36,672 nt of DNA from Spirochaetota bacterium (GTDB taxonomy: Bacteria; Spirochaetota; Spirochaetia; Treponematales; UBA12059), in NCBI GenBank assembly GCA_018815555.1, contig JAHIWF010000362.1, positions 1-36,672 of the forward strand. Direction: 5' to 3'. The stretch's first letter is position 1, and each line of letters begins with the position of its first letter. The notes beneath the pieces were generated by a model that was given only the letters and a program-made list of their open reading frames with translations, searched no databases and had not been told where the DNA came from. The position numbers and the translations under genes are program-made. Positions 5,389-28,312 of the stretch are shown in pieces.

Positions 5389-7773
5389 TCAGGCTCCCGG
5401 AGCGGCTTCCCGTGCTGCCGACTCGAATTCCATAAAGCGCTGCTCCAGTATTGGCAGCAATACTGTCAGCTGGTCTATCCGACCGGCCTTGGCCGCAGCC
5501 TCCATATCACGTGCGGCATTTCCCAGCACCCGGGCTGTCATATTCCAGGCGGCCCCTTTGATGGAATGACTGAGTTCCCTCATCTGACTGCAGTCTTCCT
5601 GCTGGACGGCAGCGGCCATTTCGGCCAACTGGCCTCTGGTTTTTGCGATGAAGCGGCCGATAAGGCTGATTACTGTTGCCTTCTGTCCGAGAAAGGTCTC
5701 CACCAGCTCGTTAAAGTCAAAGGTCGGATCTTCGGCACAGGCAGCACCGGGTGTTTCTGCTGGAACCAGGAAGTCGGCCTGCTGGCGGCCGCAGGTTTTA
5801 TTGGCCCAGAAACTGATCATGGATTCCAGATCCTTGCGTTTGAATGGCTTGATTAATATGTCATTCATACCGGTGGCAATGCATTTATCCCGCTCGCCTT
5901 TTAGCGCACTGGCGGTAACGGCGATGATCGGCCGACTGTAACCCTGCTGGCGAAGCAGGCGGCTGGCTTCATAACCATCCATAACCGGCATGAAGATATC
6001 CATCAGCACCATGTCGTAACATTGAGCCAGCGCTTTTGATACAGCTTCCTGGCCGTTGTCGGCTACATCCACGGTGCAGCCGAGTTTTTGCAGCAGCAAA
6101 GTAAAAAGTTCCTGGTTGACCACATGGTCTTCAGCCAGCAGTATCGACAGATTCATCTCGCTGTTATCGGGGCGGATGTCTACGGCTGCTTCGTCGTCGT
6201 CAGCCAGATCCAGTTCGGTCTTCTCCTCCAGGACCCTGTCCAGAGTCTCGTACAGCACCTGTGGATTTAACGGCTTATACAGGTAGGCGTTAAACCAGTT
6301 CAGGTGTTTCATTTTGGCTTCCGGGTCTATAGCCCCTTCCGGAGCCATCAGAATGAGCCGTGTGCTGTTTATTTGGCGGTCGGCGGTAATTTCGGCTGCC
6401 AGACGCCAACCGTCCATGCCGGGCATTTCCTGGTCGATAAGGCAGAGATTATACGGCCGTCCTTGCACTGCCGCCTTTTGTAGCTGCTCGATAGCTTCAT
6501 GGCCGTTAGTAGCTGTGTGGCATTCCAGACCCATATTGGCGGTCTGGCGACAGATATAATCCAATGCTGCCGGATGGTCGTCCACTATCAGAACTGCGGC
6601 AGTCCGGCTGAATTGATGTTCCAATCCCGGCAGGCTGTATTCCGCCTCGGTAAGCGGGTAGGTAAAGCCAAAAATTGCACCGTGCGGCTGATTGTGCTCA
6701 TGAAAAATCCGTCCGCCCATTATTTTTACCAAATATTGCGAAATAGCCAGCCCGAGGCCGGTGCCGCCATGGGTGGTGCTGCCGGCGTTGGCCTGGGTAA
6801 ACGGCGTAAACAGGTGATCCATCAGCTTGGCCGGAACGCCGGAACCAGAATCGCGCACCTGCAGCAAGAGCTCATTGCGTCCGCGAGTGGACTGCAGCTG
6901 GGCTTCGATGATGATTTCACCGGCAGAGGTGAACTTGATGGCATTCTTGAACAGGTTGACTACAATCTGGCGCAGCTTGCCGGGATCTCCCCTTATCAGT
7001 CGCGGCAGTCGGGGGTCAATATCCAGGATTACTTCCAGCTGCTTTTTATGAGCATCAAGGATCAGCAAGGCCACTGACTGGCGCAGAATGTCGAACAGGT
7101 CAAAATCCACATGTTCAAGCTCAACCTTGCCGGCTTCAATTTTGGAAAAATCCAGGATGTCATTGATCAGTCCGAGCAGCACGTCCGCCGAGAAACGGAC
7201 TGAGCCGATATAATCCTGCTGTTCCTTGTCCAGACCGGTTTCGTGCAGTAACTCGGTCATGCCCAGAATGGTCTGAATGGGGGTACGGATTTCGTGGCTC
7301 ATATTGGCCAGAAACTGGCTTTTGGTTATGGTGGCTTTTTCGGCTGACTCTTTGGCGCTTACCAGATCATGCTCGTGCCGCTTCTGGTCGGTAATGTTCT
7401 GGAACATACACCACAGCCAGCGCTCGGTTTGCTGCGGATCGTCCACTTCGCGGGCCGTATTCAGCAAAGACAGTGTCGTGCGCAGCCATACCCGCGAATT
7501 CTGGGCGGTTTTCAGGTTGCTTTCAATGGTCGCCGCACCCATACGTCCCAGCAGTACTTCGGTAATATAATAGGAGTATTGGAAGGAATCCCGCTCCTGC
7601 AGCCAGTCGAACAGCGGTACTGCCAGTTTTTCCGGACTCTGGCCGGACAGTTCGTAGAACAGCTCGTAAAATGCCTCATTCCAAAGAACCGGCATCCCCT
7701 GTTCATTCAGGATGATCATAGCCTGTCTGGCCTGGTTGAAAGCTGCTTCGAACAGGGTTTCCGGCAGAGTCAT
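5389..7773 (-). CDS. Hybrid sensor histidine kinase (PAS-HisKA-HATPase-REC-REC-Hpt)
   Basis: FLANMSHEIRTPIQTILGMTELL H-box, GTGLGLAISQYLVKIMGG G-box, two receivers (LIVDDH..LCLIDQEMPGMDG..YKP; LLAEDH..MVLMDIFMPVMDG..IKP), Hpt ELSHSIKGAAWN. Confidence 0.95.
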   Translation of the reverse strand: MTLPETLFEAAFNQARQAMIILNEQGMPVLWNEAFYELFYELSGQSPEKLAVPLFDWLQERDSFQYSYYITEVLLGRMGAATIESNLKTAQNSRVWLRTTLSLLNTAREVDDPQQTERWLWCMFQNITDQKRHEHDLVSAKESAEKATITKSQFLANMSHEIRTPIQTILGMTELLHETGLDKEQQDYIGSVRFSADVLLGLINDILDFSKIEAGKVELEHVDFDLFDILRQSVALLILDAHKKQLEVILDIDPRLPRLIRGDPGKLRQIVVNLFKNAIKFTSAGEIIIEAQLQSTRGRNELLLQVRDSGSGVPAKLMDHLFTPFTQANAGSTTHGGTGLGLAISQYLVKIMGGRIFHEHNQPHGAIFGFTYPLTEAEYSLPGLEHQFSRTAAVLIVDDHPAALDYICRQTANMGLECHTATNGHEAIEQLQKAAVQGRPYNLCLIDQEMPGMDGWRLAAEITADRQINSTRLILMAPEGAIDPEAKMKHLNWFNAYLYKPLNPQVLYETLDRVLEEKTELDLADDDEAAVDIRPDNSEMNLSILLAEDHVVNQELFTLLLQKLGCTVDVADNGQEAVSKALAQCYDMVLMDIFMPVMDGYEASRLLRQQGYSRPIIAVTASALKGERDKCIATGMNDILIKPFKRKDLESMISFWANKTCGRQQADFLVPAETPGAACAEDPTFDFNELVETFLGQKATVISLIGRFIAKTRGQLAEMAAAVQQEDCSQMRELSHSIKGAAWNMTARVLGNAARDMEAAAKAGRIDQLTVLLPILEQRFMEFESAAREAAPGA

Positions 7774-12200: not shown

Positions 12201-15200
12201 GACCCCGGAGACTGCCACTCAAGCCATCAGTCTGCGCGGCCAGAGCGGCACTACGGATCTTAGCGGTACCCTGCGTGTGCCGGTCCAAGCGGATGGTCGG
12301 CAGTCGGTCTGGCTGAAGGTCAGTGATACCGCCCGTGGCGATTTGTATACCCGTTTGTATCTTGATTACGACACGACGCCCGCCCAGTTGCGCTTGCTGG
12401 CACCGGCTGAGACTGCCCCGGGATCGTTTACGCTGTTGGTACATGCCGATGACGCCAACGGCATCAGTTCGGCCGAATATGAAATTAATCGTGAGAAAAA
12501 AGCCTTTACCCTGCTGCCCGGCGATACCAATATAGCAATTCCGCTTGAGTTCCCCGCCAAGGCAACTCAGCTGGCGATAATTGTGCGGGTGGTGGACGGC
12601 AGCGGCAATACTGCCATGCAGACCATAAACGTGCGCTATGACCGGACGGCGGATCTACCACAGGCTGCTTTTATCAGTCCGGTAGAAGAAGCTGTATACA
12701 GTTCAGGTGATCAGTTCTTTGTACTGGCCACCGATAACCAGTCCTTGGCTTCGGTCTCGCTTGGTGTAGGTTCAGGTACTGTCGGCGCGGAAGGTGCCGG
12801 TCCGATTTTCGGATTACGCCTACCGGAAAGCTCGGCGGGTGGTAATGCTTTGTCGCTGGTGGCGTTGGACCGTAACGGCTTGTCTTCGGAAAAGATCACC
12901 GGCAGCGTCATCTTCCGGGCGAGCGCTCCTACAATAGAAATAAGCGGCTATCAGCAGGAGAAAGCCGCGCCTGAGAGCTTAAGCATTGGTCAGTATATCG
13001 AGCTTGGCAAAGCTACAGCAGTAAACATTTCGGTAAGTGCGCCGAATGGTCTGGCTGCTGCTGAATATTGTCTGAATAACGGAGAATGGAGCCGGCTGGC
13101 TCTTCCAGCCAAGCCGGATGCATCAGGTGTATATTCCGCACAGCTACCCTTGTCTGCTGCTTTGCCTTACGACAGGATTTTATTGCAGCTGCGGGTGCAG
13201 GACGTTCAGGAACTTGTAGCCGAGACTGCCCTGAGCCTGTATCGGGTTAGCCCGCCTTCGGCAGCACCTGTTGTAGATGCCGAGGGCATCTATTTATATG
13301 ACCAGAGGGTAGCTGCCGACGGCCGTCTTAACCTGGCCCCCGGCGAAGCTGTAGAAATGTATTTTAATGGCCGCAAAGTACAGTCGGTCCGCATGGAACC
13401 GGAGCTGCCCTTTCTGGCGCTTTCCACTCAGGATGCTTTGATCAGGCTGCAGGCAGTCTCCGAGGGCTGGGATGCAGCAGCACAGCTCGTGGTAAGCACA
13501 GAGGATGGCGAAGAATTCCGGTCACGTGAAATTATAATAACAAGTGATGCCTCCGATCCCCGCGTGGCCATAACGGGGCCGGTGGCAGGGTCCTGGCTGC
13601 AGGAAAATATGCCGCTTAAAGCGCTGCTTACCGATTCGGGCGGAATCGCCTCCGCTGAATATTCACTGGATGACGGAAAAACTTGGCTGCCGCTGCCGCT
13701 TTACCAGCCGGAGAACAAGCTGCCGGAATCCGGGCAAGATGCAGCACCGGCTGCCGAGACGGCTGATTCTGCAACCGAGAGTATAGAAAGCGACCGGACC
13801 GATTCGAGCACTGTTGGTGAACCGTCCGGTCTGCAGCCGGCCGATCCGACGGATACCTCCGTCATGGTTAATGCTGATATTCTTTTGTCTGGTCCTGATG
13901 GCGCTGCGGTATTGCAGCTGCGAGCGTACGACCGTGCCGGTCGTACGTCTATTGCTCTGTTGCCATTTATCAAAGATACGCAGCCGGCAGAGCTGGCGGT
14001 AGTTGCGCCGCAAGCGGCTGATGTGGTAAACGGCAGTATACTGCTGGTTTTGGAAGCCGCAGATGCCGGTACTATAGATATTATTGAGTATGCTCTGGAT
14101 GGCGAGAGCTGGCAGCCAGTTCCCGCAGAAAATATCAGTCGGCGGGGGTCTCAGGACCTGCTGCCTTCTGGGCGCGATGCCGTACTACCTGAGTTTATGG
14201 GCTATGCCAGTTTCGCAGTCATGATAGATTTTTCTTCCCTTCCCGGTTCGCTGGAGTCTCTGTCTTTCCGAGTAGTCGATACATCGGGCAATATCCGACT
14301 CTACCAACCTCTGCTTGCTGGTGCCACTGCCTTTACTGTAGATGTGGAAGCAGACAAGCCGGTGCTGGAGATTCAGATCCCGGATGAAAATGAGGTTATG
14401 CAGGCCGATTTTACACTGTCGGGAATGATTTTTGATGATGACGGTGTGAGTGAGGTGTTCTGGCGCCTGGACGAAGGCGAATGGCAGTCCCTTCCCGGAG
14501 ACAGCAGTTTCTCTGTGCCCTTTACCCTGCAAGAACTGGAAGATAATGAGCACTTATTTGAAGCGTATGCAGTAGATGTATACGGTGTGGCCGGCGAAAC
14601 TGTCAGCCGCCAATTCAGGGTGTCGCGCGAAGAGCCGGCCGGCCAGTTGCTGAGCCCCGATGTGAGCATTACCAACCGTACTATGGTGGTAATGAATGGT
14701 GTTGCTTCCGATGCCAATGGCATTAAGGAAGTGTGGATATCTTTTGATAACGGTAATAGCTGGAACCGAGCTGTCGGCACCGAGGAGTGGGAGTACACTC
14801 TGGATACCAGGATTCTTCAGGATGGTGTACACAGTATTTACCTGCGTTTTGTTGACGGCTATGATATCACTGGTTTTTCGGCCGGTCTGATTTCGGTGGA
14901 TAATACCGCTCCGCTGGTAGATCTTGACACACCCTTTGATGGCGATGAATTTATCCAGCAGTTTACTGTGGGGGGCCGGGTATCGGACGGAGTTTTTGTT
15001 GAAGCTTTAAGGTTGGAAATCAGACGTTTGGACGATACTAGCGCGGAGCCCCTAGTTATTGAGCTGCCTACTTCGAGTGTGTTTTCGCGCAGTGTAGATA
15101 TAAGCCAGCTGGAGGCCGGCTGGTACAATCTGCGTATCACAGCGCATGACCGTGCTAAGAATGAATCCTACGTCAGCCGCAATTTTGTGGTTCTGCCGAG

Positions 15201-25582: not shown

Positions 25583-27562
25583 TCAGCCTTCATCAGCATT
25601 ACGTACGATATCAGTAAGCAGCTCTAGTAAGCGCGGTTCCAGATTTTCTTTTTTGCTGCCTGCATCCACCATGATGCGAAACACTGGTTCGGTACCGGAA
25701 GCCCGCATCCAAAAAAAAGCAAGCGCAGTTCCGGTACTGTCCTTGACAAGGAATTTTAGCCCGCCGCTGCCGCAATCGTCAGCCTGGTCAAGCTTTATCT
25801 CATTAACACCTCTGCTGACTATCGTTTCGTAGCTGCAGTTTCCGAACTCCGGCAACAACAGTTCCTGTATCCGGGGCCAGGCCTGGTCGAACAAGCGGCG
25901 GCTGTTATTTTTAATTTTTTGCATGTCGCGGCTTTGTACGCGCAACGCGGCCCGTGTTTCAAACACGCTGGTACTGCTGAACGCAGGCAGACTGCCAGCG
26001 ATGTCAGCCAGGCTGAACTCGCTGGAAAAGTTTTGGGCCTGTGCGGAACGTTCCATCCATAGCTGGTACGGGCAGGGCGCTTCGTCACTGCTCTGCAGGG
26101 CTATTAGTTTCAGCAGGGCTCCGATGGTGTTAAGCGGATCGCGGACGCTGGCCGGATAGGTTATTACCCCGCCATTTGAGCCTTCACCAAGGATCCGCAC
26201 CTGGTAGCCATCGCTACGTAGTGCTCTAGCCAGTGCAACCACATTAGCCTCGCCTGTCTCAGCACGGAACATGGCTGCGCCAAAACAGCGGGCAATCTGG
26301 TCAGCCCGCAGACTGGTGGCATCGTTGCCTACAACTGCCAGTTTGCTGCTCGTCCGCCCGTCGATTATTCGATCATATTCCATGCTGGCAAGTTCAGCCA
26401 ATACTGCAAGCGCGAAGGTTTCCTGGGCTTCAAGGGTACGTGCGCCGTCAATGCTTTCATCCCAGATAACGATGTTGCCGCGGTCGCCGTCACAGTCCGG
26501 CACGTAGCCGAAGACATAACGGCTGTCCGCCCGATGCGCCGCTTCCAGCGCCCAGCGGCACTGCTCCAGTGATTCGCCCTCCGGTACAATACGGTGGGCG
26601 AAGGAACGCGGCCGGTTGTTGATAGTCTGCACATCAACACCAAGGCCGCTGAAAAACTCCACGTCGATGGACAGACTGCGGGCGGAGCCATTCATGTCGA
26701 TGATCAAGCCGATGCCGCGTTCACGGATGGCCTGTTCAAGCCGGTCCAGGCTACGTTCTTCGGCCTGCATCATTGCTTCCGCTCCGCTTCCTTCTGTATG
26801 CCCGTCCGTAGGCACTGCTGCCAGTATCTGCCGGCAGAACAAAGTATAGGCCGAAACCGCCAGGCGCTTGTTGTACGAACATTCCGCATATACCCGCCCG
26901 CATAGTCTGGCATCAGGGCTGGCAGCCAAGGTACGCAGCAGCGCAATATCCTCAGCGGTACAGGCTCTTTCGCGCAATGCGGCCGCCAGTTCGTTAGCGT
27001 GTACCGGCGCAAGTACACCGCCATCTTTGAGCCCGAATTTAACCCCATTGTGTCCTACTGGATTATGACTGGCCGAGATATAACAGAATCCGTCGATAAC
27101 CGGCTGTATGCCAGAAGTCTTTTCACTGGATGGTTCCGCTCCCGGGTCTTTGCGGTTGGTCCAGCCCGTCCAGGCCATTATTTCCGGAGCGCTTGCTATG
27201 AATGTATAACGTACGTCAATACCTTCCGCCAGATAGATTCTGGTCATCACATCGGCAATTGCCGGGCCGCTAGGGCGGGTGTCGATGCCGAGTGCCAGGA
27301 CCGGCTGGGGATTGGAACTGTGTGCTTTAAGGAAGCGGGCAAAAACCAGAGCCATGCGGGCAACCGCATAAGCCGCAGACGGTGTGATGTCTTCTGATTG
27401 GTCTTCGTCGTCCCGGCCGAACACTCCCCGCCAACCGGAGGCTGAGAGAATGAGTTTGTCAAAAAAGGTGCGCGCTGCCTGGGGGGTGGGGCTGGACTGC
27501 AGGGGAATGCTGTATGGGTCGGCGATGGAAAAACCACTGGCCGGATGCTGTATAAGACTCAT
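25583..27562 (-). CDS. Phosphohexomutase (phosphoglucomutase/phosphomannomutase family)
   Basis: YISASHNPVGHNGVKFGLKDGG active site, PDCDGDRGNIV metal loop, EGSNGG, RASGTEPVFRI. SD AAGGA 8 nt before ATG 27562. ORF can extend to 27601. Confidence 0.92.
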   Translation of the reverse strand: MSLIQHPASGFSIADPYSIPLQSSPTPQAARTFFDKLILSASGWRGVFGRDDEDQSEDITPSAAYAVARMALVFARFLKAHSSNPQPVLALGIDTRPSGPAIADVMTRIYLAEGIDVRYTFIASAPEIMAWTGWTNRKDPGAEPSSEKTSGIQPVIDGFCYISASHNPVGHNGVKFGLKDGGVLAPVHANELAAALRERACTAEDIALLRTLAASPDARLCGRVYAECSYNKRLAVSAYTLFCRQILAAVPTDGHTEGSGAEAMMQAEERSLDRLEQAIRERGIGLIIDMNGSARSLSIDVEFFSGLGVDVQTINNRPRSFAHRIVPEGESLEQCRWALEAAHRADSRYVFGYVPDCDGDRGNIVIWDESIDGARTLEAQETFALAVLAELASMEYDRIIDGRTSSKLAVVGNDATSLRADQIARCFGAAMFRAETGEANVVALARALRSDGYQVRILGEGSNGGVITYPASVRDPLNTIGALLKLIALQSSDEAPCPYQLWMERSAQAQNFSSEFSLADIAGSLPAFSSTSVFETRAALRVQSRDMQKIKNNSRRLFDQAWPRIQELLLPEFGNCSYETIVSRGVNEIKLDQADDCGSGGLKFLVKDSTGTALAFFWMRASGTEPVFRIMVDAGSKKENLEPRLLELLTDIVRNADEG

Positions 27563-27600
27563 GACTATAATCCTTTCTTGTAACAAGTGGATTATAGTCA
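27562..27600 (-). repeat. Perfect 12-bp inverted repeat overlapping SD and start codon of the phosphohexomutase
   Basis: tgactataatcc (27562-27573) / ggattatagtca (27589-27600), with inner cttg-taa-caag. Confidence 0.9.
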
Positions 27601-27619
27601 CGAAGGGTCAGGAGGACAA
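27591..27619 (-). promoter_or_regulatory. Candidate sigma-70 promoter for the phosphohexomutase, -10 inside the distal arm of the inverted repeat
   Basis: Minus strand TTGTCC (27619-27614) - 17 nt - TATAAT (27596-27591). Confidence 0.45.
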
Positions 27620-27647
27620 TACGCTGGTATCTGCTATTAGCCGCTTG

Positions 27648-27866
27648 TCAGCTGCCTAATTCGATCTGCGGCAGCTGCAGCTCAGATTCTGCAGCCATGC
27701 GGTTTTCATTCTGGATGGCTTCGTATACTTCACTGCGAAAGACTTTAACCGAGCGAGGTGCTTCGATGCCTACTTTTACCATATCCCCGCGGATTTCGAT
27801 AATGGATACAATAATATCTTCGTTGATGATGACTTTCTCGTTAATTTTTCTGGTCAGTATAAGCAT
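27648..27866 (-). CDS. csrA: Carbon storage regulator CsrA
   Basis: [56 protein letters not shown] overlap with fliW. Confidence 0.97.
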
Positions 27867-28312
27867 TACTGTTTCCTCGATGCTGCCAATTCAGCCATCA
27901 CATCATGCTTGATCTGCCAGCGCGGATCCGCCTGTACCAGCTGTGTGCCCTGCCGGCTGGAGCGGCATATTACCAGCGGGCCCATCAGGTTGGCCGTTAT
28001 GGGTCCACCTCCCGGTGGTACCGTTACAATGGCCAGGATCAAGGCATCGTCAGGTTTCTTCATGCCGATAAGTGCGGCCAGGTCATCCGGTATGTCTACT
28101 TCATAATCCGGCCTGAAAAGAAATGGATCAAGCAGAATAAAATTCAATTCGGCGAGATCGGCCGACTGCAGGAAAAAGTATGGTTTTTGTGGCGCATCGA
28201 GCAGAGCGAAACGTGTAAATTTGTCAAAACCAATCAGACCACTGGTAAAGGTTATCAGCTGCCGCTCGTCAATATCAATTTCGCCCATTCCCTTAGTCAA
28301 AATGCTTGTCAT
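27866..28312 (-). CDS. fliW: Flagellar assembly factor FliW
   Basis: [20 protein letters not shown]...[15 protein letters not shown]...NLMGPLVI; adjacent to csrA. Confidence 0.95.

Follow-up and report, generated by a model that had tools for sequence, protein, structure and literature searches.

How is a bacterial gene translated when its Shine-Dalgarno (SD) sequence and start codon are caught up in one arm of a perfect inverted repeat and its own putative promoter lies in the other? The question arises at a phosphohexomutase gene located downstream of two co-directional genes, fliW and csrA, in the window (the whole stretch of Spirochaetota DNA that was analysed, 36,672 nucleotides). A sequence-only reading had likened the arrangement to the read-through-sensitive start of phage T4 gene e, and had named a CsrA site and a DNA operator as other possibilities.

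The repeat and the putative promoter at the phosphohexomutase start

Direct reading of the minus strand bore out the anatomy described in the sequence-only reading: a perfect 12-bp inverted repeat (27589-27600 and 27562-27573) with a 15-nt loop, an SD (AAAGGA) that overlaps the 3' arm by its GGA only, the arm itself running on to the A of the ATG, and a TTGTCC-17-TATAAT sequence with its −10 inside the 5' arm. The features of the region are as follows.

25583..27562, minus strand: phosphohexomutase gene, 659 aa (Pfam PGM_PMM_I, E 3.4e-16)
27648..27866, minus strand: csrA, co-directional, 5' of the phosphohexomutase gene and the postulated source of read-through (Pfam CsrA, E 1.4e-21; above the NCBIfam csrA cut-off)
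27614..27619, minus strand: putative −35 TTGTCC (4/6 consensus), 17-bp spacer to the −10
27591..27596, minus strand: putative −10 TATAAT within the 5' arm, homologous to TATAATC(C) in the related genomes G005, G009, G014 and G017
27600-27589, minus strand: 5' arm TGACTATAATCC, read from sequence
27588-27574, minus strand: loop ACTTGTTACAAGAAA, 15 nt, read from sequence
27573-27562, minus strand: 3' arm GGATTATAGTCA, read from sequence, its last base the A of the start codon
27587-27584 and 27580-27577, minus strand: inner loop helix CTTG/CAAG (RNA fold)
27601-27603 with 27559-27561, minus strand: three extra stem pairs, one of them G-U (RNA fold)
27576-27571, minus strand: SD AAAGGA, 8 nt 5' of the ATG

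The start codon is the ATG at 27562-27560, in agreement with the N-termini of homologs (M-x-x-x-HP-TG), and judged by its domain match the product is a divergent PGM/PMM-type enzyme, for which no NCBIfam equivalog scored above its cut-off. The putative promoter at 27619-27591 matches consensus at 10/12 positions, and because of where its −10 lies the predicted transcription start site (TSS) falls at about 27584 (± 3), inside the loop. A bidirectional promoter arising from the symmetric TATAAT was considered and rejected, as the opposite strand is without a −35 (GGATGC at 17 bp). No terminator-like site was found in the interval between csrA and the phosphohexomutase gene, and the csrA stop codon lies 45 nt ahead of the stem, so that a ribosome ending on csrA should not melt it.

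Computed folding of long and short transcripts

A 66-nt RNA carrying both arms folds into a 15-pair stem (one G-U pair; −23.4 kcal/mol, z −5.96) in which the whole AUG is paired, whereas the folds of RNAs starting at 27584 or 27581 are unremarkable (z −0.25 and −0.46). The longer stem, with its three extra pairs, and the CTTG/CAAG helix within the loop go beyond what the sequence-only reading had described. Its expectation that the start is occluded on RNA with the 5' arm and open on RNA begun in the loop is upheld by the computed folds. On a 431-nt csrA-to-gene RNA the stem is kept in both the minimum-energy and the centroid structures. Opening the region from SD to AUG has a computed cost of 18.5-19.9 kcal/mol whenever the transcript includes the 5' arm, and of 2.9-3.1 kcal/mol on transcripts starting at 27588-27581; the SD-bearing genes of the same genome have a median of 6.5 and a 90th percentile of 11.1 kcal/mol, and the phosphohexomutase ranks top of 160 of them. 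The difference in opening cost between long and short transcripts is likewise largest for this gene (16.9, against a median of 1.1) in a sampled set of 99 genes, each with a −10-like hexamer located 18-35 nt upstream of an ATG that follows an SD. The −10 rule of this ranking was widened to TATTAC after the ortholog in G007 had been seen, so the third rank of that ortholog is no independent test.

The reading that we place first, and that we hold to be about equally balanced between right and wrong, is a read-through silencer like that of T4 gene e, with an internal promoter, at the phosphohexomutase start. RNA polymerase at TTGTCC-17-TATAAT would begin the mRNA in the loop (~27584), and from this short mRNA, with its ~22-nt unstructured, SD-bearing leader, the phosphohexomutase would be translated; RNA reading through from fliW-csrA would keep both arms, and the 15-bp stem would hide SD and AUG and leave the gene near silent. 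Behind the silencer reading stand the sequence itself, the contrast between the computed folds and the conservation of the −10. On the long transcript the SD and AUG are computed to lie in a stable helix, and sequence and homology point to a promoter in the 5' arm and to a short transcript without it; we infer where the TSS lies, that read-through occurs, that translation is affected and that selection maintains the hairpin.

In phage T4, long early transcripts of gene e mask the ribosome-binding site (RBS), lysozyme synthesis drops ~100-fold, and the late promoters lie within the region coding the 5' strand; some gene e copies among T4-type phages are also without the structure (PMC3014915). 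At both loci SD and AUG would lie in a helix on long transcripts, and the sequence that codes the 5' strand would contain the gene's own promoter, which leaves short transcripts without that strand. By analogy, the window hairpin may be a bacterial counterpart of this phage device. It differs in belonging to a chromosomal metabolic gene behind a flagellar/csrA operon, in having a sigma-70-type −10 itself in the arm and in its apparent derivation from a leaderless start; the ~100-fold effect is that of T4, whereas here the effect is one of computed folding. A reason for restraint comes from the PvuII C/R system, where, in the part of the report drawn on here (PMC2997769), hairpins are likewise predicted over the RBS of the pair's second gene but had no significant effect when tested, and where, in contrast to the window, no internal promoter in an arm is described. 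Predicted RBS-occluding hairpins can therefore be inert.

Read-through protection is also known from mobile elements. In IS10 and IS50, RNA that enters from flanking DNA folds so that an inverted repeat covers the transposase RBS; that repeat is part of the mobile element's end, whereas no mobile element was found at the window site.

Probable leaderless starts in relatives and the likely origin of the hairpin

In relatives with the gene adjacent to csrA and with room for a promoter, TATAATC or TATAATCC stands directly before the gene, except in G007 and G011. The gap from −10 to ATG is 6 nt in G005 and 8 nt each in G009, G014 and G017, and the MAFFT alignment places the −10 boxes of these four on the 5' arm of the window. 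A TGACC-TTCCGTG-like stretch ahead of the −10 is common to G009, G014 and G017, where the window, compared by eye, has TGACCCTTCGTGAC; no clear counterpart of the −35 was found in the relatives. Homologs whose gene lies away from csrA have TACAAT, TATAGT, TAGAAT or TATAAT 5-7 nt before the ATG.

A −10 only a few nucleotides before the open reading frame is a published signature of leaderless genes (PMC3160421), and in a Leptospira TSS map leaderless mRNAs are common (PMC5243855). The spacing suggests that the mRNA is probably leaderless in the csrA-adjacent relatives G005, G009, G014 and G017. Taken together, the 6-8 nt spacing and the published signature indicate that the ancestral state was probably leaderless and that the longer spacing in the window (28 nt, SD included) is a derived condition. 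Leaderless genes of the published kind (PMC5243855; PMC3160421) would then match the state of most relatives of this phosphohexomutase, whereas the window gene would have shifted to a start with a leader and an SD. Many genes of this uncultured family seem to be leaderless: in samples, −10-like hexamers peak 6-8 nt before starts (G000, 13; G001, 10; G007, 14; G015, 10), typical bins holding ~2-8.

Compared with its csrA-adjacent relatives, the window species appears to have gained ~20 nt together with the SD and the hairpin. An exact inverted copy of the −10 region closes the added sequence, which suggests an origin by template switching, giving an inverted duplication. The starting point would have been a leaderless ancestor with its −10 6-8 nt before the ATG, as in most csrA-adjacent relatives; the gain of ~20 nt, including the inverted copy, between −10 and ATG would have supplied SD and hairpin together. 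If the silencer reading is true, an ordinary bacterial gene makes use of a phage-type device, duplication of a −10 in inverted orientation offers a simple route by which a leaderless gene acquires an SD along with protection from translation of upstream transcripts, and the long-minus-short opening energy is a computable signature for finding such starts in other genomes.

We also entertain, as unlikely, a broader view in which the phosphohexomutase is translated only from its own promoter throughout this family, leaderless starts and fold-back hairpins being interchangeable solutions. The leaderless start of most species would be poorly used by internal ribosomes on a long mRNA; where an SD was gained (in the window species and, independently, in G007) a hairpin would use the −10 region as its masking strand, and the design would have been put to use again at a lipoprotein gene in G015.

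Rarity of the arrangement and rival explanations

How unusual the repeat is depends on what is counted. With perfect arms of at least 12 and a loop of 3-30, the window holds 2 such repeats against 0.05 expected from dinucleotide shuffles, and 242 kb of sampled sequence from the same genome holds 13, where shuffles give 0.3 (24 in a larger sample of 425 kb). Perfect repeats are common in this genome, many of them terminators or operator-like, and the unusual feature here is position. In 1150 sampled genes from four family genomes, only 8 carry a repeat (8 bp or longer) with its 3' arm ending within 7 nt of the start, and that of the window is the longest of the 8. Repeats number 4 and 6 per 10-nt bin around the start as against 12-22 at 10-50 nt upstream; given this scarcity, a gene that tolerates one there is probably translated from an mRNA without it. 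A common class of start-codon hairpins in this genome (G000) was rejected: the start falls in the 3' arm 6 times and in the 5' arm 6 times, so the start-codon hairpin is a rarity and forms no class.

The strongest rival is a neutral by-product, in which a template switch or inverted duplication copied the −10 region and left a usable SD and an unselected hairpin, with hardly any read-through to silence. It owes this rank to arms that are perfect and unshared, one of them an inherited promoter element, and the abundance of perfect inverted repeats in the genome adds to it. In G001, of the same genus, the sequence leading into the gene reads GGCTACAATGCCCC-ATG, without the repeat. (There, csrA and the phosphohexomutase are separated by ~3.5 kb, G001:C36 56157-59664, in which both strands carry ORFs.) The repeat is absent from most homologs as well. 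Against the silencer reading, the gene in G002 and G020 starts only 0-4 nt beyond csrA, which leaves no space for a promoter; a need to silence read-through is therefore not general.

Against neutrality stand the general scarcity of such repeats at starts and two recurrences of the layout. Of 57 upstream regions scanned, four contain a perfect repeat (7 bp or longer) whose 3' arm ends near the start: those of the window and G007, and two less alike, L069 (24-nt loop) and L117 (a repeat without an SD). The G007 ortholog, 39 nt after csrA, reads TATTACCTC-actgcagtgcagg-GAGGTAATA-TG (13-nt loop, z −4.65), with a −10-like TATTAC in the 5' arm where the window has TATAAT, and an SD in the 3' arm, in a sequence that differs from the window's. 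The computed cost of opening this start is 13.9-16.6 kcal/mol when the arm is present and 4.2-7.6 on RNA starting 17-24 nt before the ATG; the −10 is weak and no promoter was called at this ortholog. At the base rate of 8/1150, some 18 family members should yield ~0.1 look-alikes; the G007 parallel, which appears to have arisen independently, is a single case, suggestive but not decisive. The second recurrence is the G015 lipoprotein-like gene (L231, G015:C17, ~14994, minus strand), 55 nt after a co-directional gene, where CTCCTCCGCG-atagaatcata-CGCGGAGGAG (11-nt loop) lies over the SD and a −10-like TAGAAT sits in the loop. Moreover, even an unselected hairpin should silence whatever read-through occurs. 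On balance we think neutrality the less probable account, though a serious one.

The sequence-only reading had allowed that unconserved arms without covariation would tell against it, and this is partly what we find: the arms are missing from G001 and most homologs, G007 offers a look-alike only, and two unrelated stems (window and G007) make no covariation series. Its T4 gene e logic keeps the folding contrast, the homologous −10 boxes and the lack of a terminator-like site after csrA on its side, and has the non-conservation of the repeat against it.

Its alternative of a DNA operator has lost ground, and we judge it improbable. Here a dimeric repressor would bind the palindrome, which spans the −10 and the gene start, for autoregulation or promoter control; palindromes over −10 and +1 are typical operators, and the genome has others that are operator-like, namely TCATTATCATTA-tcaa-TAATGATAATGA (L141 4483-4510, Fur-box-like) and, upstream of a gene for an ABC transporter (L145 ~6235-6260), AATGTACTAA-ttga-TTAGTACATT. 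However, neither the palindrome nor an exact half-site recurs anywhere else in 3.66 Mb, which disfavours a regulon operator; the half-sites lie 27 bp apart, the inner dyad CTTGT-T-ACAAG is one base off-centre, the −10 homologs in relatives have no second half-site, and an operator leaves unexplained why the 3' arm should stop just at the ATG.

Less probable still is a hairpin in the main mRNA whose opening or closing responds to CsrA, temperature or a ligand. The AAAGGA at the SD and the adjacent csrA had prompted the suggestion of a CsrA site, but a CsrA target has at least two GGA, one typically in a hairpin loop, whereas the predicted leader has a single GGA, which is in the stem on the long RNA. 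The conserved −10 would put the mRNA start inside the loop, the leaderless csrA-adjacent relatives would have no leader for CsrA to act on, and Rfam covariance models gave no match to 27300-28000 up to E = 1. A mobile repeat was rejected, there being no second copy of the repeat or of loop plus SD.

Several other palindromes came to light in the sampled genome. At L145 (G000:C342) 6475-6514, a 15-bp perfect repeat, ATTGCATACCTCCAC-10-GTGGAGGTATGCAAT, covers the SD and ATG of an ORF (MLPEFCPNPRCTYHNA...) that runs off the contig end; a transposase with read-through protection is possible. A further 15-bp perfect repeat, at L135 (G000:C323) 13214-13251 on the plus strand, lies where a cysteine-rich ORF of 81 aa (MDCRPACAACC...) begins, with TATAAT across loop and 3' arm, 8 nt before an ATG that looks leaderless; an antisense ORF there was rejected as a second case, the real gene being on the other strand. 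Finally, palindromes at L138 10373-10411 and L155 near 1180-1220 (TTTGTC(T/A)TATAA...) are preceded by ~40 nearly identical bases (tcgacatactc..tgtcgagaaattcc..tagtg) and probably represent a dispersed palindromic element.
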